From Balneolaceae bacterium (lineage in GTDB: Bacteria; Bacteroidota; Rhodothermia; Balneolales; Balneolaceae), in contig JAEPNO010000008.1 of the NCBI GenBank assembly GCA_017643365.1, positions 62,001 through 126,000 on the forward strand: a stretch of DNA of 64,000 bases, read 5' to 3'. The translations under genes and the position numbers were made by a program. Every line of letters starts with the position of its first letter. Positions within the stretch are counted from its first letter, which is position 1. Below the pieces are notes generated by a model. It saw nothing but the letters and a program-made list of their open reading frames with translations. It was not told where the DNA came from and did not search any database. Of this stretch, positions 26,469 through 51,050 are shown piece after piece.

Positions 26469-26819
26469 TTAACGGAACATGTTTTCAGCCATCTTCTCCC
26501 AAACTGCAGGATCATTCAGCATTTTACCAAGCTCTGTTTCTTTAGCAGCTTCCGGCGAAACCTGGCGTGCTTGATCGTATTCTTGAATACGAGCTTTGTA
26601 TTGTTTCAATTTAGAAAATGCAGCAGAATTTGCTTTTTCAAGTTCAATACGGGCAAATTGATCTTCGGTGCTCTGGATACCCTCTTTGCTGATCGAAACT
26701 TTGTCGGATAAATTGCCCGACTCCGTTTTTTCTGGCACTTGTTGGGCGGCGCGAGCTTCGTTGGCTTTGGCGCCATCGATTTGACCGTTAAGTTGGGTTG
26801 ATAAGTTATTGATTTCCAT
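26469..26819 (-). CDS. Small flagellar-operon protein, function unknown
   Basis: This 116-residue, mostly helical and charged protein is the last gene of the fliS-fliD-fliT-like operon. Its N-terminus MEINNLSTQLNGQ and the segment NLSDKVSISKEGIQ resemble the start of several small flagellar proteins (FlaG, FlgM), but the C-terminal half (KMLNDPAVWEKMAENMFR) does not look like a FlgM sigma-binding helix. An anti-sigma role is therefore only one possibility, noted because no other flgM candidate is in the window. It is 21 bases downstream of the FliT-like gene. Confidence 0.55.
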   Translation of the reverse strand: MEINNLSTQLNGQIDGAKANEARAAQQVPEKTESGNLSDKVSISKEGIQSTEDQFARIELEKANSAAFSKLKQYKARIQEYDQARQVSPEAAKETELGKMLNDPAVWEKMAENMFR

Positions 26820-26840: not shown

Positions 26841-27230
26841 TTAAAAATATGAAATATTGGGAGTTTTAGAAATCCCATAACTCTCTTGAACTTTTCGCTG
26901 TTTGGTTGCAACAGCCATTTTATCAAGTTGGGTATTCATGAGAGTTGATATTCGTTGTTGTATTTCATCATTCATGGTGATGAAAGCATCAAATAGAGGT
27001 CGTAGTATTTGTACATCCTCTGTGCTAAGGTTCATTTCCTTCTTATTGTTTTGAATAATGGAAAGCACCTTAAGGTGTTCTTCGCGTTCACTCATACCTT
27101 TGCGAATAGCTTCAAGCGACGGAGCATCATTTCCTAATTCGGATAAGATTCCGGCACTTAGTTCATTCAATTGCGATATGGAGTGTTTTAGTTGTTTCAA
27201 AATCTTAGTAATAGAAGCTGCTTGCGGCAA
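26841..27230 (-). CDS. fliT: FliT-like chaperone
   Basis: This 129-residue helical protein overlaps the end of fliD by 26 bases, exactly where the FliD chaperone FliT is usually encoded (fliD-fliS-fliT clusters). It is predicted to be helices throughout, with repeating hydrophobic heptads (KILKQLKHSISQLNELSAGI). FliT sequences are poorly conserved, so the name rests on position, size and helicity. Confidence 0.6.
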   Translation of the reverse strand: MPQAASITKILKQLKHSISQLNELSAGILSELGNDAPSLEAIRKGMSEREEHLKVLSIIQNNKKEMNLSTEDVQILRPLFDAFITMNDEIQQRISTLMNTQLDKMAVATKQRKVQESYGISKTPNISYF

Positions 27231-28608
27231 ACTGTGTTACCTGATCAAATTGCTGTTGGCCTTCTTCAAGTAAGGCATCCAGTTCGTTAAAAATCCTGCG
27301 TTGGTCTTCTTCATATTTCGTTAGATAATCTTCTTCTCGTTCAATTAAACGATCAAGATTGTCCACTTTGTCGTCGAGGCTATCTTCGAGCGAACTCAGG
27401 ATACCATCCGATTTGGTATAACTCTCGGCCATTGCAAGCATAGTTGCGATCGGAGAGGTAGGATCCATGAAGAAAGCTGCGATCTCTTCCGGTCGATTCT
27501 GTAAGATGTCATCGAGCACATCAGAATCATCGATTTTCATTTCGCCATCGTTTTCGAAGGTAATACCCAAATCAGAGAAATTAGCAACATTACCACTTGG
27601 AATACCTGAGGCTCCCAAAATAACCGTTTGGCGTAAATTTGAACTTAAATTTCGAACAGAGCGGTATTTTTGAAGCGGCCCTTTATTACCAGTTTCGGCG
27701 TTAATGAAGGTGCGTTCCCGAATGGTTTCGTTCACTTCATTATAAGCTTTGATGAAATCTTCTAAATTCGATTTCGATGCAGCAATATCTCGTGAAACCG
27801 TCATTTGTTCCTGAGTTCCGGTTGCATCAAGAAGGGTAAAATCTAATCCTTCAATCGCATCATCAACATTGTTAGAACCGCGGGTAAAAGTTACCCCATC
27901 GATAGTGAACTGGGAATCAAGCTCGCTATCAGGTACTAATTCTGTCATGCCACCGGTAATCTCAGCTAGTACGCCGGTAGCGCCACTCCATTGAATTCGA
28001 TTGTCGAAGCCTGTCTCTAAGCTTTGAACCGAAAACTGAACATCAGTACTGTTTGTATTAAATACATTCGCACTGGCTTCATCACCAAATTTGTCGGCAA
28101 TTTCGGTAGCAAAGGCTTCCAAAATTTCCTGGTTAGTCATGCTAACAGGACCACTACCTTCATCTTTGGTAGTAACCACATTTATGGTCTCGGTTTTATC
28201 ACCAATGGTTAGAGTTACTTCTCCATCGCCAAAAGCGGCAAGATCGGTATCGGCAGCTGTGCGGGTTCCATCGAGTGCAACGTCTTTTTTAGCAAGACGA
28301 TCGACAGTTATATTAAAAGTGTTTTCTCGATCTAGGGCCGAGATGGAATTTATCTTTACAATCTGGCTATCTGATACAGTGGATGTAAACTGTTCAAAAG
28401 AATTGTTACTGGCATCAGTGAATTCAGCAATTTTTGCCTCAAAATCAGTAATGGCCTTACTTACTTTTCCAATCGCAGTAATGCTCTCTTTAACATCGCT
28501 TTTGTCCGATTCGTAACGAAGTTTCTTCTGGCTCTCAACTTCTACTAATTGAGTTACAAAAGTCTCGTACGAGGATGTTTGAGCAAATAAACTGGAAATG
28601 GTTGCCAT
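27205..28608 (-). CDS. fliD: FliD, filament cap protein (HAP2)
   Basis: FliD caps the growing filament and helps flagellin fold onto the tip. The 467-residue protein has the N-terminal helical region with YETFVTQLVEVESQKKLRYE, the RENTFNITVDRLAKKDVAL segment of the FliD N domain, and the C-terminal block LSSNLRQTVILGASGIPSGN plus LGITFENDGEMKIDDSDVLD. The final coiled-coil tail is typical. It lies 18 bases downstream of fliS. Confidence 0.93.
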   Translation of the reverse strand: MATISSLFAQTSSYETFVTQLVEVESQKKLRYESDKSDVKESITAIGKVSKAITDFEAKIAEFTDASNNSFEQFTSTVSDSQIVKINSISALDRENTFNITVDRLAKKDVALDGTRTAADTDLAAFGDGEVTLTIGDKTETINVVTTKDEGSGPVSMTNQEILEAFATEIADKFGDEASANVFNTNSTDVQFSVQSLETGFDNRIQWSGATGVLAEITGGMTELVPDSELDSQFTIDGVTFTRGSNNVDDAIEGLDFTLLDATGTQEQMTVSRDIAASKSNLEDFIKAYNEVNETIRERTFINAETGNKGPLQKYRSVRNLSSNLRQTVILGASGIPSGNVANFSDLGITFENDGEMKIDDSDVLDDILQNRPEEIAAFFMDPTSPIATMLAMAESYTKSDGILSSLEDSLDDKVDNLDRLIEREEDYLTKYEEDQRRIFNELDALLEEGQQQFDQVTQFAASSFYY

Positions 28609-28626: not shown

Positions 28627-28950
28627 TTATACCGTGAGTTGGTGAATGTTAACCTGATTGTTAGCTACTTCTTCCCAAGTATTGCGAAGAGGTTCTAAAA
28701 TTTCTCTTACTTCGTCGAAGCGATGCTTTCTCGACAATTCCTGACAGTATCGATAAAGTTCAAAAAGTTGCCCTGCCGGCTCATAATCAAAATTCAATCC
28801 CTGAATTAGTCCGGATAGAATTTCACGTACTTTCTTGTCGTCTTCGCGATAGCTCGCTTGAATAAGCAAATCGTACATCTTTACCACCAGCTTAAGTGGC
28901 GATGCGTTCATTATTGCTTGTCTTTGATATACTAGAGTTGCGTTCTGCAT
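28627..28950 (-). CDS. fliS: FliS, flagellin export chaperone
   Basis: FliS binds the C-terminal helix of flagellin and prevents premature polymerisation. The 107-residue protein has normal length and the conserved ASPLKLVVKMYDLLIQAS segment near the N-terminus. It is the first gene of the minus-strand operon. Upstream are a FliA-like box 30 bases away and a sigma-54-like box further up, so it may be expressed in both the middle and late class. Five flagellin clients are encoded at 36-42 kb. Confidence 0.93.
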   Translation of the reverse strand: MQNATLVYQRQAIMNASPLKLVVKMYDLLIQASYREDDKKVREILSGLIQGLNFDYEPAGQLFELYRYCQELSRKHRFDEVREILEPLRNTWEEVANNQVNIHQLTV

Positions 28951-29377: not shown

Positions 29378-32300
29378 ATGCAGGTAGAAATAGCTCGAGT
29401 GCAAGCACTTTTAAGCAAAAAGCACCCGAATTCGGATAAAGCAATTAAAATGCTGCGCCCGCTCCTTAAGCGTGGAAACTGTCCGTGGATGGTTTACCAT
29501 TATATGGGAGTTGCTCTGCTGCAAAAAGCCGATCATAAAAAAGCACTAGAATATTTACAGCGAGCTTTAGAAGTAGGCGGTACCGAACCGGAAGTTTTTC
29601 ATTTAGTATCCGTTGCTCATTACAATCTCAATCACTTTGAGCAAGCTATTAAATTCGGTTTTGAAGCAGTTAAACGTAAAGATGATTTCCTGGAAGCCTG
29701 GATAAACATCGGGGCAGCACACCGCGCAATGGCGAATTTGGATGAAGCCATGAAGGCGTACACCAAAGCGAATAATATTGATCCCAAAAATGCAGGGATT
29801 GCCTACCGCATTGGTTCTATTTATTTCGATCAGGGAGATTTTAAGAAGGCAAGGGAGTTATACGAGATTTCGGCCAAAATGGAGCCTGATTTTATAGAAG
29901 CACACCTCGGTCAGGCACTCATCGATCTGAAACTTCAGAAATACACCGATGCTGAAGCCAAGATCAAAAAAACGCTGGAAATTGCGCCAAACAACCGCTT
30001 ATGCAGAATTCAGTTAGCCGTTGTTTATAAAGAATGGGGGCATTACAGCGAGGCCATCAGGCTTAATGAGCAATTATTACGCGAAAACCCAAAAGACGGA
30101 CGATTAAGGGTTAACTATGCGCTGTGTTTGCTCGAAGTTGGTCGGTTTAATGAAGCAGAGCATAATTATATGCGAGCGTTAAAAGACTCGCCCGATGCAC
30201 ACGAGTCGCTTTCGAATTATTTAATGGGTATCCATTACAATCCGGAGCGAACCAAAGAAGAAATTTTTGATGCTCATGCTTTGTGGGATCAACATTTTGC
30301 TCCAAAAACTAGAAATGAGCGTCCGGTTCCAGCTAATCTAGATCCCTATAAAAAACTTCGAGTCGGATTTATCTCTGGTGGCTTTAGAAAACATCCCGTT
30401 GGTTGGATGATTACGCGCGCACTTGAAAATCTACCATCCGAATTATTCGAAATTTATGGGTATAACACCCATTCGGTGCACGACGAATTTACCATGCGCA
30501 TTCGCAATTGCTGCGAAAAATGGACCACCGTTATTGGATATAACGACGAAGTAGTTGCTAAAATCATTCGGGATGATGAAGTTGATATTTTAGTTGAACT
30601 CTCAGGGCACTCTGCGTTTAATCGACTTAAAACCGTTGCACTTGAACCGGTACCAATTACCATTAAATGGGTGGGTGGACTGTTTAACACCACAGGATTG
30701 GAAAGCATGGATTACCTGCTTACCGATCACTATGAGTCGCCAAAAGGGGAGGAAGCATTTTATACCGAAAAGTTAGTGCGTATGCCCGACGATTATGTGT
30801 GCTACGAGCCACCGGCGTACGATATTAAAGTGGCGGAACTTCCGGCCTTATTTAACGGATTTGTTACGTTTGGGTGTTTCAATAACCCATCGAAATTGAA
30901 TGATCAATTGATTGAGCAATGGTCTCAAATTCTGCATTCGGTTGAAGGAAGTAAATTATTTCTGAAAAGTAAGCAGTACGACACTCCAGACTTTGTTAAA
31001 CAAGTTGTAGATGAGTTTGAGAAAAATGGAATCGAAAAATCCCGATTGATATTTGAAGGTTACGCCATGCACGAAGATCTGCTGGCCTCGTACAATCAAG
31101 TGGATATTGCGCTAGATCCGTGGCCATATTCGGGTGGCTTAACAACCTGCGAAGCTCTTTGGATGGGAGTTCCTGTGATAACCTGTGCAGGTCCCACTTT
31201 TGCCGGGCGACACTCAGTAACGCATTTATCAAATACCGGAAACAGCGATTGGGTTACTTATAACTGGGAAGATTACAAAGCGAAGGCATTGGAACTTGCC
31301 TCAGATATCGAAGCCTTAAAACACACACGTGCCGGTTTAAGAGATCAATTATTGAACTCCCCGTTATGTGATGGTGCTCGATTTGGGGCACACTTAAGTA
31401 CTGCGTTCCGCGAGATGTGGAAGCAACGAGTTGAAGGATATAAACAAAATCTGCCCGAAGGCGAGTGGCAGAATCATATTGATGTGAGAGCTTTAAATGA
31501 AGCCGCATTGGATGTTTTTTGTAAAGATCATGCACTTAGTAAAGAGCCACCGGTTTTACAGAATTACCATCAAATTGAATGGGATAATGGCCTTAAAGTG
31601 GCAGTTCCCAAATCGAAAGAAAATTTTACGCATTACACACTCATTGAAAATCCTGAGAAGCATCAGCGATTATTCGAGGTATTCTCTGAAATCCTGAATC
31701 AAAACGATCAAGTTTTGGAAGTGGGATCTGGATATGGTGTACTAACCATGCATTTAGCTCATTTGGTTGGGGAAAACGGAACAGTTGTAGCCGTTGAACC
31801 AAATCCGAGGATTGTTCCTTTTTTAAAGGAAAGCAAACGTATCAATAGGCTAGATCAGGTTGCAATAAAAGAAGTAGCCGCCGATACTAATGATGGGGCT
31901 TCGTATTTATTGGTGGGAAGCATCCAAGAAAATGGGATGCTTAATCAAGAATTGGGAACCATTCCGGTTGACGCAAAAACTTTACAACAAATAGCCGATG
32001 ATCATCAAGCGTTCGACCCAAAACTTGTTATTATTGATGTTGCTGGTGATTTATCACCAATTTTAGAATGTGTTGATTCACTCGAGAAGAACGAAAAACC
32101 TATTATTTGTTTGGGCAATTTCGGTGAATTTGATTCCGATCAAGCACACGCCTTAAAGTCAGAGGGCTACAAATTTTTCGAGCATATCGAGGAAGTTGGA
32201 GTACTTTCGGCAGTGGAAGAAAACCATACTTCAACAGCCCGCTGGATTTTTGCTTTAAACCAAGATCATATTCAAAAACTCACGGACAAGGGATTCGTTT

Positions 32301-34060
32301 TTGGAGGCGAAGCCAATACTATAGAAGTGAGCAGAAATTATGTGCAGGAAGTTCAGAGCCAACCTTGGGCTACGAATTTTTCACTCAGCTGGATAACCGA
32401 GGCTGAGTCAGAAGCCGAAGCCAATTATTTCAAAGCAATTAATATGCTTTGGGAGGTTGAGCAAAATCAAGAACTCACGCCTTCTCAAAAAGCATCACTT
32501 TCGGTAGAAGCTGCCATTATATTGCTTGAATTGTACTCGGCAAATCCCGGTGTGCTCTCGGTGGCAAGTAGTTTGAGTCGCGCATTTTTAAATATTGGAA
32601 AGCGAAAAGATGCCGCCAGTATTTTAAAAAGCACATTCGAGCATGTAATGACCTCGAACCAGCCGATTGATTTAAGTCTGCCATTTTTATTGCCACTTAC
32701 CGAGCAAGAAAAGTATCCGATTGCCGGAAATGCTGTTGATTGGCTTAAAATAAAAATAGCCGAAGCATGGTTGCTCCTACAACATGAAAGCACTTTCTTT
32801 TTAGATCAAAAAGAGCTGAACATTCTTAAACAGATTAATGGTAACCCACATGCATTACCGATTATAAAAACCATTGCCGAAAGTTTATTGGTACATGGCG
32901 AAATGGAGGTAGTGCCTGCATCGAGCCGAAAAGCTGACGGAAAGTTCATACACATTTGCTTCAATCACACTTATGCGAAAGGGTTGAACGATATGTTGAT
33001 GCGAGCGAACGAGCTTTCATCGCAGGAACATCATTTAGTGTTAGAACGGCACACCGCAATCGACAATTTTTTTGTTGATGTGAGTGATAATTCGCTTGCA
33101 GTGGTTCTAAATCATAAGCATGATATCGATCGTATTAAGAGAATATGTACAGCCGCTGATGTTGATGGAATTATTTTTCATGGAATCTTCCAGGAATGGC
33201 AAAAGAAGCTGGTAAAACACATTGGTTTCAATAAACATATCAGCTGGGTTCTTTGGGGTGGTGATTTGTACAACCCAATCAAGTTTGGGCGCCCAATGCG
33301 ATTTATTGCCGGTTTTGTCGACAGTATTATGTCCAGCATTGAAGGTGATATTGAAGTGTTTAATGCAAACTATGGAAATCGCAAAACATTCAATTTTGGC
33401 TATCCTTACGCCGGTTTATATGGCGAAATCACTATTAGTAATGAAAAATCGGATCCTCCGGTAATCATCGTTGGGAACTCAGGAGATCGAGGGAACGAGC
33501 ATCTTCCGGTACTTAAAATATTATCCGAAAAAACGGACATCAGTAATTTCAAAATCCTTCTGCCGGTTGCTTATAACCTGAGTGACGAATATGAAGCGGA
33601 ATTATTGGATGGAATTAAAAAGCTCGGTTTAGAAAAGAATACCGTACTTCAAAAAGAGTTTCTACCTGCCGACGAATACATTCAGTTGGTAGCTTCAAGT
33701 TACCTGTTTATCGGCGCACATAATCGCCAACAGGCAATGGGTAATATTTTGGGATCGGTGTATGGCGGTAATCATACGGTGATCCGGAAGCAGATTCTTG
33801 TGAATAAGAATTTACGAAGCAATCCAAGCTGGGACTTTTTAAAGAAATACGATTTCCAAATTACCGATCTAAGCTCTTTGATGAATGTAAAGGCGTTAAT
33901 AGACTTGCCGGAAATAAACGAAGAGCAGAAGAAAAAGCACCAACAGGTAATCGAAAATGATTTTTCGCTCGATGCTAGAGTTGATCAATTAACCAAAGCA
34001 TGTGCTCAGATTTTAGAAGGGATCAGAAATCCACAAACCAAAGAATTGGTAAACGTTTAA
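29378..34060 (+). CDS. Multidomain glycosyltransferase: TPR - OGT (GT41) - FkbM-like methyltransferase - WecF-like (GT56)
   Basis: A 1560-residue fusion. (1) TPR repeats, residues 1-285, bind protein substrates in this family. (2) OGT/SPINDLY-type GT41 catalytic region, about 326-690: LRVGFISGGFRKHPVGW with His339, VDILVELSGHS with His411, FGCFNNPSKLND with Lys506, and DPWPYSGGLTTCEALWMGVP (580-599). (3) FkbM-like methyltransferase, about 735-960: SAM motif VLEVGSGYG (779-787), then AVEPNPR and a LVIIDVAGD segment in place of the family's IKIDVEG. (4) Helical linker, 1005-1150. (5) WecF-type domain, 1190-1550: GIIFHGIF, SWVLWGGDLYNP, VIIVGNSGDRGNEH and NRQQAMGN, all matching known WecF. It lies between fliS and the flagellins with a WecE-type gene 12 bases downstream. 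Inferred role: cytoplasmic flagellin O-glycosylation and glycan extension. Confidence 0.88.
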   Translation: MQVEIARVQALLSKKHPNSDKAIKMLRPLLKRGNCPWMVYHYMGVALLQKADHKKALEYLQRALEVGGTEPEVFHLVSVAHYNLNHFEQAIKFGFEAVKRKDDFLEAWINIGAAHRAMANLDEAMKAYTKANNIDPKNAGIAYRIGSIYFDQGDFKKARELYEISAKMEPDFIEAHLGQALIDLKLQKYTDAEAKIKKTLEIAPNNRLCRIQLAVVYKEWGHYSEAIRLNEQLLRENPKDGRLRVNYALCLLEVGRFNEAEHNYMRALKDSPDAHESLSNYLMGIHYNPERTKEEIFDAHALWDQHFAPKTRNERPVPANLDPYKKLRVGFISGGFRKHPVGWMITRALENLPSELFEIYGYNTHSVHDEFTMRIRNCCEKWTTVIGYNDEVVAKIIRDDEVDILVELSGHSAFNRLKTVALEPVPITIKWVGGLFNTTGLESMDYLLTDHYESPKGEEAFYTEKLVRMPDDYVCYEPPAYDIKVAELPALFNGFVTFGCFNNPSKLNDQLIEQWSQILHSVEGSKLFLKSKQYDTPDFVKQVVDEFEKNGIEKSRLIFEGYAMHEDLLASYNQVDIALDPWPYSGGLTTCEALWMGVPVITCAGPTFAGRHSVTHLSNTGNSDWVTYNWEDYKAKALELASDIEALKHTRAGLRDQLLNSPLCDGARFGAHLSTAFREMWKQRVEGYKQNLPEGEWQNHIDVRALNEAALDVFCKDHALSKEPPVLQNYHQIEWDNGLKVAVPKSKENFTHYTLIENPEKHQRLFEVFSEILNQNDQVLEVGSGYGVLTMHLAHLVGENGTVVAVEPNPRIVPFLKESKRINRLDQVAIKEVAADTNDGASYLLVGSIQENGMLNQELGTIPVDAKTLQQIADDHQAFDPKLVIIDVAGDLSPILECVDSLEKNEKPIICLGNFGEFDSDQAHALKSEGYKFFEHIEEVGVLSAVEENHTSTARWIFALNQDHIQKLTDKGFVFGGEANTIEVSRNYVQEVQSQPWATNFSLSWITEAESEAEANYFKAINMLWEVEQNQELTPSQKASLSVEAAIILLELYSANPGVLSVASSLSRAFLNIGKRKDAASILKSTFEHVMTSNQPIDLSLPFLLPLTEQEKYPIAGNAVDWLKIKIAEAWLLLQHESTFFLDQKELNILKQINGNPHALPIIKTIAESLLVHGEMEVVPASSRKADGKFIHICFNHTYAKGLNDMLMRANELSSQEHHLVLERHTAIDNFFVDVSDNSLAVVLNHKHDIDRIKRICTAADVDGIIFHGIFQEWQKKLVKHIGFNKHISWVLWGGDLYNPIKFGRPMRFIAGFVDSIMSSIEGDIEVFNANYGNRKTFNFGYPYAGLYGEITISNEKSDPPVIIVGNSGDRGNEHLPVLKILSEKTDISNFKILLPVAYNLSDEYEAELLDGIKKLGLEKNTVLQKEFLPADEYIQLVASSYLFIGAHNRQQAMGNILGSVYGGNHTVIRKQILVNKNLRSNPSWDFLKKYDFQITDLSSLMNVKALIDLPEINEEQKKKHQQVIENDFSLDARVDQLTKACAQILEGIRNPQTKELVNV

Positions 34061-34072
34061 AGAGGGCATGCC

Positions 34073-35287
34073 ATGGAACGGTTAGACATACCATTTAATA
34101 AACCATTTATCACCGGCAACGAGTTGGAATACATTAAAGATGCCGTTGAACAGGGCCACATCAGTGGTAATGGAAAATACACAAAGCTCACCCAACAGTT
34201 TTTTGAGCGACAGTATGGATTTAAAAAATGTTTGCTAACTACATCTTGCACCGATGCGCTTGAAATGTGTGCTCTACTGCTAAATATTAAGCCCGGCGAT
34301 GAAATAATAATGCCGTCGTTTACTTTTGTAAGTACGGCAAATGCCTTTGAACTGCGAGGTGGAGTAATCCGTTTTGTGGATTCGCGTGAAGATCACCCCG
34401 GTATTGATGAAGAAGCCATCGAAGCTCTGGTTACCGAAAAAACCAAAGCAATTGTAGTAGTGCACTATGCCGGCGTTGCTACTGATATGGATAAAGTGAT
34501 GGCAGTAGCAGAAAAGTATAATCTAAAAGTTGTGGAAGATGCGGCACAATCAATCAACAGTTTTTATACGCACGCGGATGGGAGCGTAAGTCCGTTAGGT
34601 TCAATTGGTCACTTAGGAACATTCTCTTTTCACGAAACCAAAAATATTATGGCCGGCGAAGGAGGGATGTTAATTTTGAATGACGATGAATTTGTCCACC
34701 GTGCCGAGATTATTTGGGAAAAAGGTACCAACCGAACGGCGTTTTTTCGTGGTGAAGTTGATAAATATGGCTGGGTTGATATCGGATCATCATTTTTGCC
34801 ATCAGAATTAAATGCGGCTTTTTTATATGCCCAACTCAGTAATTTGATAAGAATCCAACATAAGCGAATGGCTATTTGGAACAAGTATCATAAAGGGCTG
34901 GAAAATAGTTGTGCCCGTTTGGACATCAAACAGCCTAGTATGCCCGATTTTGCTACGAATAATGGACACATGTATTACTTGGTTTGTAAATCAGAAACTC
35001 AGCGTAATAATTTAATCGAGCATTTACGCGAGATGGGAATTCACAGCGTATTTCATTATCAATCGTTACATAAATCAGAATTTTTCACAAAGAAGCATGA
35101 TGGCAGGGTTCTTGCTAATACAGAACGGTATAGCGATCGATTGGTACGGCTCCCATTTTATTACGAGCTAAGCACGACAGATCAGGATTTGATAATTGAA
35201 GCTATAAATAGCTTTGGTGGTAACCGACAGAGTTTAATTGAAAAAACCTGGCCGGATACCTACGGTGAGCACGCGGCCACCGGATAA
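34073..35287 (+). CDS. wecE: WecE-type dTDP-4-keto-6-deoxyhexose aminotransferase
   Basis: A 404-residue PLP enzyme of the DegT/DnrJ/EryC1/StrS class. The N-terminus DIPFNKPFITGNELEYIKDA and GNGKYT, the MPSFTFVSTANAF segment, VVEDAAQS and the PLP-binding Lys190 in GTFSFHETKN are present. The FHETKN motif is that of WecE, which converts dTDP-4-keto-6-deoxyglucose to dTDP-4-amino-4,6-dideoxygalactose (Fuc4N). Its neighbour upstream ends in a WecF-type domain, the transferase that uses the acetylated form, so both act in one sugar pathway. No acetyltransferase (WecD-type) gene is nearby. The ATG at 34073 is preceded by GAGG and follows the fusion gene by 12 bases. A terminator follows at 35361. 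Confidence 0.85.
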   Translation: MERLDIPFNKPFITGNELEYIKDAVEQGHISGNGKYTKLTQQFFERQYGFKKCLLTTSCTDALEMCALLLNIKPGDEIIMPSFTFVSTANAFELRGGVIRFVDSREDHPGIDEEAIEALVTEKTKAIVVVHYAGVATDMDKVMAVAEKYNLKVVEDAAQSINSFYTHADGSVSPLGSIGHLGTFSFHETKNIMAGEGGMLILNDDEFVHRAEIIWEKGTNRTAFFRGEVDKYGWVDIGSSFLPSELNAAFLYAQLSNLIRIQHKRMAIWNKYHKGLENSCARLDIKQPSMPDFATNNGHMYYLVCKSETQRNNLIEHLREMGIHSVFHYQSLHKSEFFTKKHDGRVLANTERYSDRLVRLPFYYELSTTDQDLIIEAINSFGGNRQSLIEKTWPDTYGEHAATG

Positions 35288-36135: not shown

Positions 36136-37092
36136 ATGGCAAGTTTTGGAGATTTAAACAGAGTAGGAACAAATGTTCAATCAATCGACGCGCAGTTATC
36201 TCTTAACCGAATTAACCGCAGCTTATCAAACAGCCAGGAGCGCTTAACTACTGGTAGTAAAATTAACCGAGCTGAAGACAATGCAGCCGGATACTCGATC
36301 GCAACTAAATTAAAAAGTAGAGTTGCCGGACTAGAGCAGTCTTTACAAAATGTGAGTGACGCGAAGTCAGTATTAGATATCGCAGAATCAAGCTTTGATA
36401 TTGTAATGGACAGCTTGATCGAAATGAAAGCCCTTGCAACACAGGCAGCTAACGATACTTTAGGATCAACCGAGCGTAGCTATATCGGCGATCAACTTAG
36501 CGCAATCGGATCTGACATCAACGAAATTGCGAACCAAACTATTTATCAGGATCAAAACCTATTAAATGGTACTGACAACTCAGGAAGCATCTCATTAACC
36601 TTCCAAACCGGCGAGCGTCAGGAAGACACCATCACTGCTACAATTAATGCAGTAAACATTGGTGAATTGTTCGCAGCCTCAGGCGATGCTTCGCTTGGCG
36701 CAACAACAACAGCAGGTGGTGCCTCTGCAAGTGGTGGAGCCATCTCAGTAACCGCTTCTACAGCATCCGATCAAGGTACTTTTACCTTCGCATCTACAGC
36801 AACGGGCGCCGATTACAACGCTTTTATCACAGCCATCGACTCAGCAATCGATTCAATGGCAGAAAATGTGAACCAAATTGGTATCACTCAGTCTTCACTA
36901 TCTCTTAGAGAAGAAACCCTATCCGAATCTATCTCGGCGAACGAATCTGCGAAAAGCCGAATAATGGATACCGATTTTGCCAAAGAACAGGCCGAAACTG
37001 TAAGACTTCAGATCTTGCAGCAAACTGCGACCTCAGCCTTAGCCCAGGCTAACAACGGTCCGCAGGCGGTACTTGGATTCTTAGGCCAGTAA
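36136..37092 (+). CDS. fliC: Flagellin 1
   Basis: A 318-residue flagellin. The conserved D0/D1 ends are complete (N-terminus SLNRINRSLSNSQERLTTGS and INRAEDNAAGYSIATKLKSR; C-terminus DTDFAKEQAETVRLQILQQT). The central part (about 165-235) is short, Ala/Ser/Thr/Gly-rich (SGGAISVTASTASDQGTFTF), and should be the exposed surface and the likely O-glycosylation site. This copy is the most divergent of the five: it alone has QSIDAQLSLNRINRSLS and ends VLGFLGQ. It has its own FliA promoter and terminator. RBS-like GGTGA precedes the ATG. Confidence 0.96.
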   Translation: MASFGDLNRVGTNVQSIDAQLSLNRINRSLSNSQERLTTGSKINRAEDNAAGYSIATKLKSRVAGLEQSLQNVSDAKSVLDIAESSFDIVMDSLIEMKALATQAANDTLGSTERSYIGDQLSAIGSDINEIANQTIYQDQNLLNGTDNSGSISLTFQTGERQEDTITATINAVNIGELFAASGDASLGATTTAGGASASGGAISVTASTASDQGTFTFASTATGADYNAFITAIDSAIDSMAENVNQIGITQSSLSLREETLSESISANESAKSRIMDTDFAKEQAETVRLQILQQTATSALAQANNGPQAVLGFLGQ

Positions 37093-37420: not shown

Positions 37421-38371
37421 ATGGCAAGTTTTGGAGATCTTAACAGAGTGAATACCAATGTGCAGTCGCTTGACTCACAATTATCACTAAACCGTGTTAA
37501 CCGCGATTTGGCTAATAGCCGTGAGCGATTAACTACCGGTAAACAAATTAATAAGGCAGAAGACAATGCTGCCGGGTATTCAATCGCTACTAAGTTAAAA
37601 AGTAGAGTAGCAGGTCTAGAGCAATCACTACAAAACGTAGGTGATGCTAAATCGGTACTGGATATTGCAGAATCAAGTTTTGATGTTGTTATGGACAGTC
37701 TTATCGAAATGAAAAGTCTGGCTACGCAGGCTGCTAACGATACGCTAGGTGATACCGAGCGTGGTTATATCGGTGATCAGATTGCTGCAATCGGTAACGA
37801 TATCAACGAAATCGCAAACCAAACGATCTATCAGGATACCGAACTATTAAACGGTACTGATAATTCTGGAAGCGTATCTCTTACATTCCAAACCGGAGAG
37901 CGAGCTGAAGATACTATTACTGCAACTATCGCTGCGGTAAATGTTGGTGAGCTTTTTGCGGCTTCTGGTGATGCATCTTTAGGTGCTACAACAACTGCCG
38001 GTGGTGGAGCTGCTTCAGGCGGTGCAATTTCAGTAACTGCAGCAACGGCTTCCGATCAAGGTACTTTTACCTTCGCATCTACTGCAACTTCTGCTGATTT
38101 CAACGCATTTATCAGTTCAGTTGATTCGGCGATTGATACTATGGCTACTAACGTAAACGACATTGGTATTACTCAGTCGTCGCTATCTTTACGTGAGGAT
38201 ACCTTAAGTGAGTCGATCTCGGCTACGGAATCTGCCAAATCCAGGATAATGGATACCGACTTTGCGAAAGAGCAATCAGAATCGGTTCGATTGCAGATCT
38301 TGCAACAAACTGCAACTTCATCATTAGCTCAGGCTAACAATGCTCCTCAAGCAGTATTAGGATTTATCTAA
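37421..38371 (+). CDS. fliC: Flagellin 2
   Basis: A 316-residue flagellin, closely similar to copies 3-5. N-terminal QSLDSQLSLNRVNRDLANSR and C-terminal MDTDFAKEQSESVRLQILQQ blocks form D0/D1. The variable part is again VNVGELFAASGDASLGATTT with AGGGAASGGAISVTAATA. It ends VLGFI, two bases earlier in effect than copies 4 and 5, because the codon after Ile is TAA instead of GGA. Preceded by AGGTGA and its own FliA-type promoter. Confidence 0.96.
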   Translation: MASFGDLNRVNTNVQSLDSQLSLNRVNRDLANSRERLTTGKQINKAEDNAAGYSIATKLKSRVAGLEQSLQNVGDAKSVLDIAESSFDVVMDSLIEMKSLATQAANDTLGDTERGYIGDQIAAIGNDINEIANQTIYQDTELLNGTDNSGSVSLTFQTGERAEDTITATIAAVNVGELFAASGDASLGATTTAGGGAASGGAISVTAATASDQGTFTFASTATSADFNAFISSVDSAIDTMATNVNDIGITQSSLSLREDTLSESISATESAKSRIMDTDFAKEQSESVRLQILQQTATSSLAQANNAPQAVLGFI

Positions 38372-38597: not shown

Positions 38598-39548
38598 ATG
38601 GCAAGTTTTGGAGATCTAAACCGAGTGAATACCAACGTGCAATCGTTAGATGCACAATTATCACTAAACCGAGTTAACCGCGACCTCTCTAACAGTAGAG
38701 AACGACTAACAACCGGTAAAAAAATCAATAAAGCAGAAGACAATGCAGCAGGTTATTCAATTGCAACAAAATTGAAAAGCCGTGCGGCCGGTCTTGAGCA
38801 GTCGCTATCAAATGTAGGCGATGCTAAATCAGTATTGGATATTGCAGAATCAAGTTTTGATGTTGTAATGGACAGTCTTATCGAAATGAAAAGTTTGGCA
38901 ACGCAGGCTGCCAACGATACGCTAGGTGATACCGAGCGTGGCTACATTGGCGATCAAATTGCTGCTATCGGAAACGATATCAACGAAATCGCGAACCAAA
39001 CCATTTATCAGGATACCGAATTATTAAATGGTGCTGATAACTCAGGTAGTGTGTCGCTTACTTTCCAAACAGGAGAGAGAGCTGAAGATACTATCACTGC
39101 GACCATTGCAGCAGTGAATGTTGGTGAACTTTTTGCAGCTTCGGGCGATGCTTCGCTTGGTGCTACTACAACTGCCGGTGGTGGAGCCGCTTCAGGTGGA
39201 GCGATCTCAGTTACCGCAGCAACTGCATCAGATCAAGGTACTTTTACCTTCGCATCTACCGCAACTTCTGCCGATTTCAATGCATTTATCGCAGATGTTG
39301 ACACCGCAATTGATACGATGGCAACCAACGTAAATACCATTGGTATTACGCAGTCATCCCTGTCTTTAAGAGAGGATACATTGTCAGAATCTATTTCCGC
39401 AACGGAATCTGCTAAATCCAGGATAATGGATACTGACTTTGCGAAAGAGCAATCTGAATCGGTTCGATTACAGATTTTGCAGCAGACCGCAACCTCAGCA
39501 TTAGCTCAGGCAAATAACGGTCCACAGTCGGTTCTTGGATTTATCTAA
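38598..39548 (+). CDS. fliC: Flagellin 3
   Basis: A 316-residue flagellin almost identical to copies 2, 4 and 5 in D0/D1 and in the short central domain. Distinguishing features are RDLSNSRERLTTGKKINKAE, KSRAAGLEQSLSNVGDAKSV and AFIADVDTAIDTMATNVNTI. It ends VLGFI. AGGTGA stands six bases before the ATG. It has its own promoter and terminator. Confidence 0.96.
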   Translation: MASFGDLNRVNTNVQSLDAQLSLNRVNRDLSNSRERLTTGKKINKAEDNAAGYSIATKLKSRAAGLEQSLSNVGDAKSVLDIAESSFDVVMDSLIEMKSLATQAANDTLGDTERGYIGDQIAAIGNDINEIANQTIYQDTELLNGADNSGSVSLTFQTGERAEDTITATIAAVNVGELFAASGDASLGATTTAGGGAASGGAISVTAATASDQGTFTFASTATSADFNAFIADVDTAIDTMATNVNTIGITQSSLSLREDTLSESISATESAKSRIMDTDFAKEQSESVRLQILQQTATSALAQANNGPQSVLGFI

Positions 39549-39802: not shown

Positions 39803-40756
39803 ATGGCAAGTTTTGGCGATCTAAACCGAGTGAATACCAACGTGCAGTCGCTCGACGCACAACTTTCACTAAACCGTGTTAACCGTGACTTGGCGAATAG
39901 CCGTGAGCGTTTAACAACCGGTAAAAAAATTAATAAAGCAGAAGACAACGCTGCAGGATATTCAATTGCAACTAAATTGAAAAGCCGCGTGGCAGGCTTA
40001 GAGCAATCTCTACAAAATGTAGGTGATGCTAAATCAGTTCTCGATATTGCGGAATCAAGTTTTGATGTAGTGATGGACAGTCTTATCGAAATGAAAAGTT
40101 TAGCAACGCAAGCAGCGAACGACACACTTGGCGATACCGAGCGTGGATACATTGGCGATCAGCTTGCAGCTATTGGTTCTGATATCAATGAAATTGCGAA
40201 CCAAACCATTTATCAGGAAACAGAGCTGCTTAATGGAACAGATTACAGCGGAGCGATATCACTTACTTTCCAAACCGGTGAACGAGCGCAGGATACGATT
40301 ACTGCAACCGTAAACGCCGTAAACGTTGGTGAGCTTTTCGCAGCTTCCGGTGATGCATCTCTTGGTGCTACAACAACAGCCGGTGGTGGAGCCGCTTCGG
40401 GTGGAGCGATCTCAGTTACTGCAGCAACTGCATCCGATCAAGGTACTTTTACCTTCGCATCTACTGCTACTTCTGCCGATTACAATGCATTTATCAGTTC
40501 GGTGGATACAGCAATTGATACTATGGCTACCAACGTAAATACCATTGGTATTACGCAGTCGTCGCTTTCGCTTAGAGAAGATACATTGAGTGAGTCGATC
40601 TCGGCTTCTGAGTCTGCGAAATCCAGAATAATGGATACTGACTTTGCGAAAGAACAATCCGAATCTGTTCGACTTCAGATCTTACAACAGACCGCAACCT
40701 CGGCACTAGCCCAGGCAAATAATGGTCCACAATCTGTACTAGGATTTATTGGATAA
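39803..40756 (+). CDS. fliC: Flagellin 4
   Basis: A 317-residue flagellin. Small differences from the others are ETELLNGTDYSGAISLTFQT, QDTITATVNAVNVGELFAAS and SADYNAFISSVDTAIDTMAT; otherwise D0/D1 and the central domain are shared with copies 2, 3 and 5. It ends VLGFIG. AGGTGA lies six bases before the ATG. Confidence 0.96.
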   Translation: MASFGDLNRVNTNVQSLDAQLSLNRVNRDLANSRERLTTGKKINKAEDNAAGYSIATKLKSRVAGLEQSLQNVGDAKSVLDIAESSFDVVMDSLIEMKSLATQAANDTLGDTERGYIGDQLAAIGSDINEIANQTIYQETELLNGTDYSGAISLTFQTGERAQDTITATVNAVNVGELFAASGDASLGATTTAGGGAASGGAISVTAATASDQGTFTFASTATSADYNAFISSVDTAIDTMATNVNTIGITQSSLSLREDTLSESISASESAKSRIMDTDFAKEQSESVRLQILQQTATSALAQANNGPQSVLGFIG

Positions 40757-41018: not shown

Positions 41019-41972
41019 ATGGCTAGTTTTGGAGATCTAAACCGAGTGAATACCAACGTGCAATCGTTAGATGCACAGCTTTCACTAAACCGTGTTAACC
41101 GTGACTTGGCGAATAGCCGTGAGCGATTAACCACCGGTAAAAAAATCAATAAAGCAGAAGACAACGCAGCGGGTTATTCAATTGCAACAAAATTGAAAAG
41201 CCGTGCAGCAGGTTTGGAGCAATCACTACAAAACGTAGGTGATGCAAAATCAGTGTTGGATATCGCAGAATCAAGCTTCGATATTGTAATGGACAGCTTA
41301 ATTGAAATGAAAAGTTTAGCAACGCAAGCTGCTAACGACACATTGGGTGAAACCGAGCGTGGTTATATTGGCGATCAGATTGCCGCTATCGGAACGGATA
41401 TCAACGAAATCGCAAATCAAACCATTTATCAGGATACTGAGTTATTAAATGGTGCTGATAATAGTGGATCTATTACACTTACTTTCCAAACCGGAGAGCG
41501 TGCACAGGATACCATTACAGCTACAATTGATGCAGTAAACGTAGGAGAGTTGTTTGCGGCTTCCGGCGATGCATCTTTAGGTGCTACAACTACAGCAGGT
41601 GGTGGAGCCGCTTCCGGTGGAGCCATTTCTGTAACTGCAGCTACGGCGTCTGATCAAGGTACTTTTACCTTCGCATCTACCGCTACTTCGGCTGATTTCA
41701 ATTCCTTCATCAGCGCAGTTGATTCGGCGATTGATACCATGGCTACTAACGTAAATACCATTGGTATTACGCAGTCTTCACTTTCTTTACGTGAGGATAC
41801 GTTGAGTGAGTCAATTTCAGCAACTGAATCTGCGAAATCCAGAATTATGGATACCGACTTCGCGAAAGAGCAATCAGAATCTGTGCGTCTTCAGATTCTA
41901 CAGCAAACTGCTACTTCAGCTCTTGCGCAGGCGAATAACGGACCTCAGTCTGTTCTTGGATTTATCGGATAA
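41019..41972 (+). CDS. fliC: Flagellin 5
   Basis: A 317-residue flagellin, last of the tandem array, closest by eye to copies 3 and 4. Distinguishing features are SRAAGLEQSLQNVGDAKSVL, GETERGYIGDQIAAIGTDIN and ADFNSFISAVDSAIDTMATN. It ends VLGFIG. AGGTGA precedes the ATG and a strong terminator follows. Together the five genes suggest a composite filament or dose-controlled expression. Confidence 0.96.
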   Translation: MASFGDLNRVNTNVQSLDAQLSLNRVNRDLANSRERLTTGKKINKAEDNAAGYSIATKLKSRAAGLEQSLQNVGDAKSVLDIAESSFDIVMDSLIEMKSLATQAANDTLGETERGYIGDQIAAIGTDINEIANQTIYQDTELLNGADNSGSITLTFQTGERAQDTITATIDAVNVGELFAASGDASLGATTTAGGGAASGGAISVTAATASDQGTFTFASTATSADFNSFISAVDSAIDTMATNVNTIGITQSSLSLREDTLSESISATESAKSRIMDTDFAKEQSESVRLQILQQTATSALAQANNGPQSVLGFIG

Positions 41973-42030: not shown

Positions 42031-42114
42031 GTATTTCTGATTTGAGGAACAATTCAATAGGTTCGAACTTCAATGGGCTTCGATAACTCAATTTCCGATT
42101 GGTACATACAACCT

Positions 42115-43668
42115 ATGGCAAGAATAATGGCGGGCGTTTTAACTAAACTAAGTGCGATATTTGTGTTGGTGATGTGTTCATCAGTAATAGTGCAGGCGCA
42201 AACGTTCGAAGAATGGAAAAAGCAGCAGCAGGAAGAATTTCAAGCCTACAAAGATAAGTTCGACGAAGACTTCATAAAGATGCTAAAATCCACTTGGGAA
42301 GAAGTTGGTGTGAACTCAGGGGCAGGATTTTATAACGAACTCAAACCCATCGATATTCCGATTTATACACCGCCAGAACGTCCTGAAAATGAACTTCCTG
42401 ATGAGGTTGTAATCGAAGAGAACGTAACCATTAATCTAAATTTCGATTTGGATACCGAGCCGATCGACTTGCCCACTCCAGCGCCTGATATCGAAATTAA
42501 AGATGAAGCGACGGTAGAAAAGGCATTTAACTTTTTTGGTGATGTGGATACCCGGTTTCATCAATTAGAATTCTTTTCTAATGCTATTCCTTTTAGTTAT
42601 CCGGCAATGATTTTCCGAAAATTGAATCCATCAAAATACCGAAATGGAGAAATTGATAACGATCGCATCGCTGAATTTTGGGAAGAGGTGAGTAGTGTAA
42701 ACCATACCGAGTTTGTGAATCACACAAAGAACTTAAAATCAGAATTAGCCCTTAACGATTGGGGATATATCCTGCTTATCAATTCAATTTCGAAAGACAT
42801 CGTAGGAGAGCAAAACCCAAATCTGGTACGTTTGATGAATTGGTTTTTGCTTACAAAAGCGGGTTATAGAACAAAAGTGGGATACGATCAAAATGGGGTG
42901 TACAACTTGTTTGCCGTTTCAGGGAATGTCTTCGATTGCAAATATTATATCCTGGATGGAGAGAAGTATTTCCCGATTAATTTTAACGATGAGTATCAAA
43001 CTCCGAATTCAATTTTCACGTACTTGGGTGGACATCAGGCACAAGTTCGTAAGTTGGATTTATCTATCGAAAAATATCCTGTTTTCGATAATCAGGCCAA
43101 TACATTCCAAAAAACACTGCGTTTCGAATTCAAGAATCGACATTATGAATTCCCTGTTACCGCCAGCAAAGATCTGATCTCGTACTTTGAATATTATCCT
43201 CGAACCGATTTGCCGGTGTTCTTTTCTGCTTCGATGTCGGAATCCACCAAAAAGCAGCTATACACGCAGTTAGAGCCGATTTTAGAAACCATGAATGAGC
43301 TTCAGGCAGTGAACTTTCTACTTCGAATGGTGCAAACTTCCTTCGAATATAAAGCGGATCAGGATCAATTTGATCGCGAGAAATACATGCTTCCGGATGA
43401 GATTTTCTATTACAAGTATTCAGATTGTGATGATCGAGCGATCTTTTTCGCAACCTTGGTAAAAGAACTATTGGGCTTGGATGTGATTGCCCTCAGGTAC
43501 AGTCGGCACCTGGCAACCGCCGTAAAATTCACGCATACAGTTCCCGGCGATTATCACATCTCCCAAGGCCAAAAATATGTGGTTGCCGATCCAACCTATG
43601 TGAATGCTCCCGTTGGGCTAACGATGACATCCTACCGAAACGAACGCCCCGAAATTATTCGGTTTTAA
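42115..43668 (+). CDS. Exported transglutaminase-like (cysteine protease fold) protein
   Basis: A protein of about 517 residues with a signal peptide (VLTKLSAIFVLVMCSSVIVQ, then AQ). A Lys/Glu/Gln-rich helix follows (FEEWKKQQQEEFQAYKDKFD), then a Pro-rich linker, and a C-terminal transglutaminase-like core: Cys in YKYSDCDDRAIFFATLVKEL, His in LRYSRHLATAVKF, Asp in VVADPTYVNAPVG, the Cys-His-Asp triad of the superfamily. Such proteins act outside the cytoplasm as proteases or linkers. The start is uncertain: ATG at 42115 gives the best signal peptide, but in-frame ATGs exist at 42073 and 42127. It follows the last flagellin terminator by 85 bases with no FliA-like box, so a flagellar role is unproven. 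Confidence 0.7.
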   Translation: MARIMAGVLTKLSAIFVLVMCSSVIVQAQTFEEWKKQQQEEFQAYKDKFDEDFIKMLKSTWEEVGVNSGAGFYNELKPIDIPIYTPPERPENELPDEVVIEENVTINLNFDLDTEPIDLPTPAPDIEIKDEATVEKAFNFFGDVDTRFHQLEFFSNAIPFSYPAMIFRKLNPSKYRNGEIDNDRIAEFWEEVSSVNHTEFVNHTKNLKSELALNDWGYILLINSISKDIVGEQNPNLVRLMNWFLLTKAGYRTKVGYDQNGVYNLFAVSGNVFDCKYYILDGEKYFPINFNDEYQTPNSIFTYLGGHQAQVRKLDLSIEKYPVFDNQANTFQKTLRFEFKNRHYEFPVTASKDLISYFEYYPRTDLPVFFSASMSESTKKQLYTQLEPILETMNELQAVNFLLRMVQTSFEYKADQDQFDREKYMLPDEIFYYKYSDCDDRAIFFATLVKELLGLDVIALRYSRHLATAVKFTHTVPGDYHISQGQKYVVADPTYVNAPVGLTMTSYRNERPEIIRF

Positions 43669-43728: not shown

Positions 43729-44712
43729 ATGATTAAACCCGATTACAATCGAATTCCATATCGCAAATGCGGGAATTCAGGACTTTATCTCCCCATTCTT
43801 TCTCTAGGACTTTGGCATAATTTCGGCGGACAGCAAACGCCCGAAAAAGTGGATCAAATGCTAACCAGAGCTTTCGAGCTTGGTATTACTCACTTTGATC
43901 TGGCAAATAATTACGGTCCGCCTCCGGGAAGTGCCGAAGAACAATTCGGTAGAGCACTCAAAACCATTTTTCATGGCCGGCGCGATGAGTTGATCATTTC
44001 CAGCAAAGCGGGTTTTGGGATGTGGGAAGGTCCGTATGGCGACGGCGGTTCTCGTAAGTATTTGATTTCAAGCTGCGATCAAAGCCTCAAGCGTATGGGA
44101 TTGGAATACGTGGATATTTTCTATCATCACCGCCCGGATTACGACACACCGCTGGAAGAAAGCATGCGCGCCTTAGAACAAATTGTTCGATCGGGTAAAG
44201 CGTTGTACGCAGGGATTTCCAATTACCCCGCTGATCGAACTCGGGAAGCCATTCAAATGTTAAAATCATGGGGGGTGCCGATCGTGATTCATCAGCCGAA
44301 ATACAATATGTTCCATCGCGAGCCGGAGTTGGAAGGGACTTTTGATGTGATTCAAGAAGAAGGCGTAGGCAGCATTCCGTTTTCGCCATTGGCACAAGGT
44401 TTACTCACCAACAAGTATCTGCACGGAATTCCTGAAAACTCACGAATTGCAGATCCAGATGGATTTTTACAGGAAGGAGATTTAACCGATGCTGTGCTAC
44501 AAAAAATCAAAGACTTGAATGCAGTCGCAGAATCACGCGGACAAAGTCTTGCCCAGCTTGCGTTGGTATGGATTTTACGTCACCCGGCAGTTACTACAGC
44601 CTTGATTGGAATCAGCAGCATCAATCAATTGGAAAACAATGTGGAAGCCATAGACAATCTGGAATTAAGCGCTGAAGAACAGCAACGAATCGAAGAAATC
44701 TTGAATGCTTAA
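43729..44712 (+). CDS. Aldo/keto reductase (YghZ/Gpr type)
   Basis: A 327-residue NADPH-dependent reductase of the AKR14-like group, close in pattern to L-glyceraldehyde 3-phosphate reductase: N-terminus YRKCGNSGLYLPILSLGLWH, THFDLANNYGPPPGSAEEQF (Asp and Tyr of the catalytic tetrad), LIISSKAGFGMWEGPYGDGG (Lys), YVDIFYHHRPDYDTPLEES (His), and NADPH site LIGISSINQLENNV. The start is set at the ATG 43729, where similarity to the family begins. A GTG 45 bases earlier is possible. Its 3' end overlaps that of the convergent hydrolase gene by 4 bases. Confidence 0.88.
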   Translation: MIKPDYNRIPYRKCGNSGLYLPILSLGLWHNFGGQQTPEKVDQMLTRAFELGITHFDLANNYGPPPGSAEEQFGRALKTIFHGRRDELIISSKAGFGMWEGPYGDGGSRKYLISSCDQSLKRMGLEYVDIFYHHRPDYDTPLEESMRALEQIVRSGKALYAGISNYPADRTREAIQMLKSWGVPIVIHQPKYNMFHREPELEGTFDVIQEEGVGSIPFSPLAQGLLTNKYLHGIPENSRIADPDGFLQEGDLTDAVLQKIKDLNAVAESRGQSLAQLALVWILRHPAVTTALIGISSINQLENNVEAIDNLELSAEEQQRIEEILNA

Positions 44713-45635
44713 TTCAGGAATTCAAGAATAGCTTTATTGGTAGCGGCTGGTTTTTCGAATTGCACAAAATGTCCGGCATTTTCAAAAAGGATAGATCTCG
44801 AATTCTGGATCATTTCCTCGGCTGTTTTTGCAATTTGTTGAGTGGTTAGCGTTGGATTCAGATATTTATTCGGAATCAACGCATCATTCTCACCAAAGAT
44901 GATCAATGTTGGTTGAGTGATTTCTGCTAGGCGATCATAAACCGGTTCATCCAACATAGCAGCTACGCTACCGGAAACACTTGCGCAGTACTGTTCGAAA
45001 TCTTTCCGCTTTTCCATCGCAAAACGATCTTCGATCATAAACAGTGCACTTTCAGGCATTTGGTAAAAATTAAGGCGATAATTTGCCAGTGATTGTTCCT
45101 GGCTTGTATTGCAAACACTGGCAGGTGTAACAAACGATTTTAACATCGTTGCCTGCTGTGCATTAAACGTTTCGATACCGGCAGGGGCAACCAAAACAAG
45201 CTTTTCAACTAAGCTGGGATTTTCAAGAGCAAGAGTCATTGCAATTTGCCCACCCATCGAATGTCCGGCCAAAGTTACTTTTTCGATTTCGAGATGATTT
45301 ATTAACTCAGAGATCGCTTCAGCAAAAGATATTAAAGAAACAGGTTGCAGATTTTTAGACGACATTCCGTATCCAGGCAAATCAGGAACAATTACACGAT
45401 ACCGCTCAGATAATGCCTCGATGTTATGGGTCCATGCCGGACCATAACTCCCCAAGCCGTGTATCAATATTATTGTTTCGTTGCCAACTTTGGTGTCCAT
45501 ATAGGCAATGGATACAGAATCTTTTACCGTGATTTCATTTACGGGATAAGGATAAGAATCTGAAATCTGGGCTTGCGTTGAAATGCACAGAATTAAGGTG
45601 ATAAAGATCGATAAGAGGGAGGCTAGGCGTTTCAT
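44709..45635 (-). CDS. Exported alpha/beta-hydrolase
   Basis: A 308-residue hydrolase with a signal peptide (LASLLSIFITLILCISTQAQ). Oxyanion-hole HGLGSYGPAW, nucleophile elbow GHSMGG (Ser), acid in IFGENDALIPN and His in ENAGHFVQFEKP are present. The substrate is unknown; esterases and dienelactone-type hydrolases look alike. Its start overlaps the acyl-CoA ligase stop by 4 bases, so it is co-transcribed with the acyl-activation genes. Confidence 0.85.
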   Translation of the reverse strand: MKRLASLLSIFITLILCISTQAQISDSYPYPVNEITVKDSVSIAYMDTKVGNETIILIHGLGSYGPAWTHNIEALSERYRVIVPDLPGYGMSSKNLQPVSLISFAEAISELINHLEIEKVTLAGHSMGGQIAMTLALENPSLVEKLVLVAPAGIETFNAQQATMLKSFVTPASVCNTSQEQSLANYRLNFYQMPESALFMIEDRFAMEKRKDFEQYCASVSGSVAAMLDEPVYDRLAEITQPTLIIFGENDALIPNKYLNPTLTTQQIAKTAEEMIQNSRSILFENAGHFVQFEKPAATNKAILEFLN

Positions 45636-47152: not shown

Positions 47153-47162
47153 TCTTTTGGTT

Positions 47163-48164: not shown

Positions 48165-48907
48165 TAAATTGTCAAACCTCCATCAACACTCAGCGTAATG
48201 CCCGAGATAAATGCGGCTTCATCACTGGCTAGAAATGTGTAGGCGTTTGCGATGTCTTCCATGCTGCCTAAACGGCCGAGTGGCGTATTACCGGTGATGC
48301 CTGCAATCACTTTTTCAGGCACTGTCTTTATCATTTCTGTTTCGATAAAGCCCGGGGCAACGGCATTTACTGTAATTCCTTTCCGGCCCAATTCACGGCT
48401 CCAAACTTTGGTCATGCCGATCACACCGGATTTGGTTGCAACATAATTACTTTGCCCAAAATTGCCGTAAATACCCACAATCGACGATGCATTGATGATT
48501 CGGCCATAGTTTTGTTCAATCATAAACTCAGAAACAGCCTTAGTGCAATTGAAAACTCCGGTCAGGTTCACATCGATTACTTGTTGCCATTCTTCGGGAG
48601 TCATTTTTACCAAGCGTGCATCGCGAGTTATGCCGGCGTTGTTTATCAGAATGTCGATTTTGCCATATTTTTCTTTCGTTTTGGCAGCTGCAGTCTGTAC
48701 ATCTTCAAAAGAAGTGACATTTACTTTTTGGAAGGATGCTTTTTCGCCATTAGCATTTAACTGATCAAGAACAGCCTGACCTTTTTCAACGTTAACGTCC
48801 CAAATTTCTACAAATGCGCCTTCTTGAATAAATTTTTCTACGGTAGCCAGCCCTATTCCCTGAGCTCCACCGGTTACTATCGCCACTTTTTCAGATAATC
48901 TGTTCAT
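48164..48907 (-). CDS. Short-chain dehydrogenase (FabG-like)
   Basis: A 247-residue SDR: cofactor motif TGGAQGIGLATVEKF, NNAGITRDARLVKMTPEEWQ, catalytic Ser in INASSIVGIYGNFG, Tyr and Lys in YVATKSG, and PGFIETEMIKTVP. Closest in look to 3-oxoacyl-ACP reductases and related 3-ketoacyl or hydroxyacyl dehydrogenases. It is the first gene of the operon, overlapping the FabH-like gene by a single base, and would reduce or oxidise the ketone or alcohol group of the acyl substrate. Confidence 0.9.
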   Translation of the reverse strand: MNRLSEKVAIVTGGAQGIGLATVEKFIQEGAFVEIWDVNVEKGQAVLDQLNANGEKASFQKVNVTSFEDVQTAAAKTKEKYGKIDILINNAGITRDARLVKMTPEEWQQVIDVNLTGVFNCTKAVSEFMIEQNYGRIINASSIVGIYGNFGQSNYVATKSGVIGMTKVWSRELGRKGITVNAVAPGFIETEMIKTVPEKVIAGITGNTPLGRLGSMEDIANAYTFLASDEAAFISGITLSVDGGLTI

Positions 48908-48975
48908 GAAATGAGTTTAGAATTTTATTGTTTTGAAATTTTTAAAATGATGGGGCTAAAAAAATTAAGTGCTAA

Positions 48976-49473: not shown

Positions 49474-49504
49474 GTTTATACTGCAAGTGCTTTTATAAGT
49501 CTAT

Positions 49505-51025: not shown

Positions 51026-51050
51026 GCGCTAATAGTGTAAATAATTAGGT

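Follow-up and report, generated by a model that had tools for sequence, protein, structure and literature searches.

The window analysed here, a stretch of 64,000 nucleotides from a contig of a Balneolaceae bacterium, carries a single unbroken open reading frame, from ATG to stop, for a protein of 1560 amino acids, which is followed by a gene for a WecE-class transaminase and by five tandem flagellin genes (Table 1). Divergent from this gene lie two genes which we take to be fliS and fliD (names given by position, not by family search), and a gene for a sigma-54 activator, recognized by Pfam, is located upstream on the opposite strand; the positions of all three are conserved at the loci of related enzymes. 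Between the fliD-like and sigma-54 activator genes, two small open reading frames (26469-26819 and 26841-27230), which gave no Pfam match and are kept at most of the related loci, possibly encode uncharacterized flagellar proteins. After the flagellin genes comes a 531-residue protein (42073-43668), 77% identical in the sister species G002 and without Pfam match over the cut-off, the C-D-H arrangement of which gives the impression, and only the impression, of a transglutaminase-like fold.

Table 1. Features of the flagellin locus (positions in the window)
Feature	Position	Strand	Basis or remark
Fusion gene, TPR-GT41-FkbM-linker-GT56	29378..34060	+	1560 aa; domain profiles, orthologs
TPR repeats	29378..30247	+	residues about 1-290; Pfam TPR models; proposed flagellin-docking part
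SPINDLY-like GT41 domain	30248..31480	+	residues about 291-701; Pfam, sequence comparison
FkbM-family methyltransferase	31643..32227	+	residues about 756-950; TIGR01444
Helical linker	32228..32941	+	residues about 951-1188; common to unsplit relatives, missing in split ones
GT56 (WecF-family) domain	32942..34057	+	residues 1189-1560; Pfam, NCBIfam, alignment, profile comparison
WecE-class dTDP-4-amino-4,6-dideoxygalactose transaminase	34073..35287	+	542.6 bits, equivalog cut-off 375; directly 3' of fusion gene
Five tandem flagellin genes	36136-37092, 37421-38371, 38598-39548, 39803-40756, 41019-41972	+	proposed acceptors
fliS-like gene	28627..28950	-	divergent neighbour; position conserved at loci of the fusion's family
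fliD-like gene	27205..28608	-	position conserved at loci of the fusion's family

The first-pass annotation had described the protein as a four-part fusion of TPR, GT41, FkbM and GT56 domains, and all four indeed exceeded their family cut-offs in Pfam and NCBIfam, while a fifth part, the helical linker, had been missed. The TPR region (residues about 10-285) passed the curated cut-offs of several Pfam models, Glyco_transf_41 scored 127.2 bits (cut-off 25), the FkbM family model TIGR01444 scored 42.0 over residues 779-890 (cut-off 37.7) and Glyco_transf_56 scored 52.0 bits over residues 1196-1479 (cut-off 25). Of the motifs quoted by the annotation, the SAM motif I (VLEVGSGYG, residues 779-787) is intact, and the WecF-like blocks of the C-terminal domain were located at 1290-1298 (WVLWGGDLY), 1366-1375 (GNSGDRGNEH) and 1449-1456 (NRQQAMGN).

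Mis-assembly of two separate genes, under which the fusion would be an artefact, was excluded by a search for the same architecture among relatives, which yielded two further genomes with a fused and four with a split version. The fused orthologs, both at the matching position beside fliS-fliD and flagellin genes, are a 1560-residue protein of G002 (contig JAEPQH010000008.1, L012/L013) with identical architecture and neighbours (76% identity) and a 1600-residue version of G314 (42% identity). In G023, G222, G294 and G429, two adjacent genes encode TPR-GT41-FkbM (974-975 residues) and TPR-GT56 (561-564 residues), followed in order by genes for a hexapeptide acyltransferase, WecE and flagellin. 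The separate GT56 gene carries a TPR of its own, which shares 34-36% identity with the TPR at the N-terminus of the fusion; this kinship argues that the GT41 and GT56 enzymes would dock on one and the same protein.

Comparison of the window protein with its G002 ortholog by module gave 90% identity for TPR plus GT41, 72% for GT56 and 46% for FkbM, the flanks of the last ranging from about 65 to 90%. FkbM is thus the fastest-changing module of the fusion protein, and its low identity beside the 90% of TPR and GT41 indicates that it has been replaced or is fast-evolving. This divergence between sister species, together with the sequence IDVAG in place of the IDTEG or IDVNG of relatives, could also mean that the FkbM domain, or else the GT56 domain, is inactive and serves as a scaffold; since the motifs shared with WecF are kept, the SAM motif I is intact and dN stays well below dS throughout the gene (a qualitative result, synonymous sites being near or at saturation), we consider such a loss of activity very unlikely.

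GT41 enzymes are protein transferases of the GT-B fold. The GT41 domain of the fusion gave the highest score with SPINDLY-type enzymes (262.8 bits; E about 1e-97 in comparison with SPINDLY), followed by the OGT of Thermobaculum (241.8), that of Xanthomonas (127) and human OGT (about 119). Since its closest kin is of the SPINDLY type, the label 'OGT' is not to be taken as GlcNAc transferase, and the original proposal of GlcNAc as the first sugar found no support. Alignment with Arabidopsis SPINDLY (SPY), a GT41 protein O-fucosyltransferase of the same TPR plus GT41 composition, placed H495, N661, K665, H728 and Y744 of SPY at H339, N502, K506, H565 and Y584 of the fusion, and these five residues, as well as T590, are invariant in all 20 GT41 proteins aligned. 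K665 and Y744 are essential in SPY (PMC9715652), and with the equivalent K506 retained, the GT41 domain looks catalytic as far as its residues tell. In contrast, S496 and T748 of SPY are replaced by P340 and L588, the latter again invariant in 20 of 20, so that the sugar donor is not readable from the sequence. The genome includes GMD and a gene resembling GDP-fucose synthase (Fcl-like, 479.5 bits, just below the cut-off of 500), from which GDP-fucose may be available in the cell.

WecF of Escherichia coli is a standalone enzyme of 359 residues that acts on lipid II of the enterobacterial common antigen, and WecE makes its amino-sugar donor. The C-terminal third of the fusion was confirmed as a relative of WecF, since the E. 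coli motifs (HG, WGxDLY, GNSGDxxNxH and RQQ) are kept in an alignment of 19 sequences and the profile of the fusion GT56 matched one built from standalone GT56 sequences and E. coli WecF (hhalign probability 100, E 1.8e-42). The partner gene wecE is likewise shared; the differences are that GT56 is joined in the present protein to a glycosyltransferase acting on proteins and that it falls far below the WecF equivalog cut-offs of NCBIfam (124.9 bits against 457; 55.8 against 525), and therefore the exact donor and acceptor may differ from those of WecF. Profile search gave no solved-structure relative of GT56, no GT56 relatives were detected in viral contigs, and an AlphaFold model of the domain, built from an alignment of two sequences only (window and L012), reached a pLDDT of 39.6, too low for a comparison of folds. 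Two other large GT56 proteins were observed away from this locus. One, encoded in the same genome off the flagellin locus (contig C49, L015:9440-13270), is a second GT56 fusion of 1276 residues with TPR, GT2 and GT56, with an ortholog in G002 (L014) and a matching stretch of G001 (L017) that lies in at least two frames; the other, of G234 (L088:1494-12728), is a single chain of 3744 residues with GT56, FkbM, GT4/GT1-type, GT2 and methyltransferase domains, adjoined by genes for a PglD-like acyltransferase and a DegT aminotransferase.

All seven GT56 flagellin loci include a gene of the WecE class with 49% or more identity to that of the window, and the approximately 20 non-GT56 flagellin loci with the downstream side at least partly readable have none; several of the latter carry a different DegT aminotransferase (26-31% identical). 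The association of GT56 with WecE is suggestive and does not amount to a formal independent test, because, by the GT41-core tree, two acquisitions of GT56 could suffice. RmlA and RmlB, for the substrate of WecE, are present in the genome. A dedicated N-acyltransferase for the 4-amino sugar was not found there: the hexapeptide acyltransferase that stands beside WecE at other GT56 loci is absent from the window locus, and WecD reached only 26.8 bits against a cut-off of 195. We considered whether the AMP-ligase, KASIII and SDR genes at 45632-48907 supply this system with a viosamine-type acyl pathway and rejected the idea, since G002 lacks the block in its syntenic region. The larger stretch 44709-54449, which contains genes for an abhydrolase, AMP-ligase, KASIII, SDR, regulator, symporter and TonB receptor and is missing at the same place in G002, is an apparent insertion or loss relative to that genome.

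The proposal of the first-pass annotation that GT56 has exchanged its lipid carrier for a protein context was strengthened by its presence beside flagellin genes in seven genomes, by the adjoining WecE and by the TPR of the split GT56 gene. Under an alternative, only the GT41 part glycosylates flagellin, GT56 works on a lipid-linked polysaccharide as E. coli WecF does, and the fusion serves co-expression alone; the pairing of GT56 with WecE is in fact found also off flagellin loci, WecE being nearby at 7 of the 9 loci of standalone GT56 genes read in the phylum. In the split relatives, the GT56 gene nevertheless stays in the flagellin gene row and carries at its N-terminus a TPR that is homologous to the TPR of the GT41 enzyme; in the tree, the GT56 domains of flagellin loci group with their paralogs in a starred branch apart from standalone GT56. 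We hold this alternative to be distinctly unlikely. On the acceptor side, the middle of the flagellins (residues 146-232) contains 24-27 Ser/Thr per 87 residues, the flanks about 44 per 230; potential acceptor sites would thus be plentiful, which proves nothing by itself. A Maf-type PF01973 protein gave no match in the genome, in a search whose control set matched only in archaea.

The first reading, correct as to the fusion itself, had missed a larger pattern, the variation of the C-terminal module across the order. When the 129 genomes of the order were searched with the GT41 core, 37 gave a match at E up to 1e-100; 30 of the loci were read, among them that of the window (in G001, G038, G040 and G464 the locus is truncated by a contig end, so that terminal modules or neighbours are partly unseen). 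At all 30 the core lies near fliS, fliD or the sigma-54 activator gene, with a rearranged local order in G427; one weaker match (G007) is away from such a flagellar locus. The 20 aligned proteins show tight conservation of the GT41 core; the unsplit members also share an alignable linker (about 955-1188), which the four split ones lack. The C-terminal module is GT56 in three fused and four split genomes, GT2-like at other loci (weak in G328, 22.8 bits against a cut-off of 23.3), a second FkbM methyltransferase in five genomes, and further a GT-B-like domain (Glyco_trans_1_2), GT2 with GT-B, or GT2 with methyltransferase. At the flagellin loci of G041 (L112:3554-9400, together with a methyltransferase) and, weakly, of G038 (L114:7501-13338), the GT41 enzymes have protein-kinase or LPS-kinase-like C-termini, hinting at phosphorylated glycans. 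Across the order, the TPR-GT41-methyltransferase-linker half forms, beside fliS-fliD, a conserved platform with a variable C-terminal module. In well-supported branches of the GT41-core tree, G314 groups not with the window protein but with G328 (GT2) and G021 (GT-B), so that the GT56 label must have changed at least twice on this tree, indicating module exchange.

Taken together, these findings lead us to propose, with a probability of roughly two in three, that the fusion protein is a cytoplasmic enzyme for assembly of flagellin O-glycan, to which GT56 adds an outer Fuc4N-type sugar. The TPR superhelix, a putative flagellin binder judging from the position of the gene beside the flagellins and by analogy with FlmG, would bind flagellin before export; the SPINDLY-like GT41 would attach the initial sugar to Ser/Thr residues in the Ser/Thr-rich centre of flagellin, and the FkbM domain would O-methylate one sugar of the glycan. 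As the gene coupling suggests, the adjacent WecE would make dTDP-4-amino(acylamido)-4,6-dideoxyhexose of the Fuc4N type from the RmlA/RmlB product, and GT56 would transfer this sugar as the outer residue to the protein-bound glycan rather than to the lipid II of common antigen. Within the order, the front half would serve as the platform, the C-terminal module would be exchanged between strains together with the genes for its donor sugar, and the fusion would represent one setting within a modular arrangement. Another order or division of the reactions, with GT56 adding the first sugar and GT41 extending it, or with the methyltransferase acting on the outer sugar, is in our judgement unlikely: with GT41 enzymes being protein transferases, the catalytic residues invariant and the terminal module variable, a common first and a variable last step are expected, even if the order of domains in the chain does not fix that of the reactions and the methyl group of Pseudomonas syringae flagellin sits on the outer viosamine (PMC3927599). 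As to the wider proposal that, throughout the order, a single polypeptide acts as an assembly line for flagellin glycan, with a fixed TPR-GT41 start, methylation and exchangeable ends (GT56, GT2, GT-B, methyltransferase or kinase-like), in which a swap of the cassette with its donor-sugar genes changes the surface chemistry of the flagellum, we see even odds.

If these proposals hold, GT56 would not be limited to synthesis of lipid-linked antigens, and a single chain would be able to build a protein glycan in the cytoplasm from the first sugar to the cap, modification included, independently of any lipid carrier. With its co-inherited donor pathway, the exchangeable end module would then provide naturally occurring parts on which the rewiring of glycosyltransferase modules could be tested, and the modular system would predict the composition of flagellin glycans in Balneolales from gene content. 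The initial view that no enzyme of this architecture had been described needs to be narrowed, as GT41 joined to a methyltransferase in flagellin islands (PMC4875605) and TPR-glycosyltransferase enzymes for flagellin (PMC7591256) are already known; what looks new is the addition of GT56 to GT41-methyltransferase and a terminal module that can be swapped. In the literature searched, which left out most subscription journals, we found neither GT56 joined to flagellin GT41 enzymes nor a platform with exchangeable ends; for WecF together with flagellin nothing appeared beyond an unrelated microarray study, and no paper was found on flagellin glycosylation in Balneola. A scan of 84,980 species, reaching close relatives only, gave one match to the fusion.

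Among the known systems, FlmG of Caulobacter crescentus glycosylates flagellin after binding it through its TPR (PMC7591256, 2020). The fusion protein likewise combines TPR with a GT-B transferase, and C. crescentus resembles the present genome in an N-terminal TPR joined to a cytoplasmic GT-B glycosyltransferase, a genome without Maf and several flagellins; FlmG differs in its 596 residues, its two parts, the use of pseudaminic acid and the lack of methyltransferase and GT56, and in that its function was shown by experiment (PMC7591256). Flagellin glycosylation islands of Enterobacteriaceae, reported in 2016, encode enzymes with GT41 (SPINDLY-domain, COG3914) and methyltransferase in one chain at the flagellin locus, accompanied by DegT aminotransferases and acetyltransferases; they belong to another phylum and another gene position, and the parts of that paper drawn on here mention neither GT56 nor other exchangeable C-terminal modules attached to a constant platform (PMC4875605). 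In the viosamine island of P. syringae the enzymes are separate proteins, the first sugar is a rhamnose added by Fgt1, and the genes for the acyl group are without conserved counterpart at the present locus; the glycan cap is a methylated 4-acylamido-4,6-dideoxyhexose, and, as proposed for GT56, a large transferase (VioT) completes the flagellin glycan with an outer sugar derived from 4-amino-4,6-dideoxyhexose (PMC3927599).
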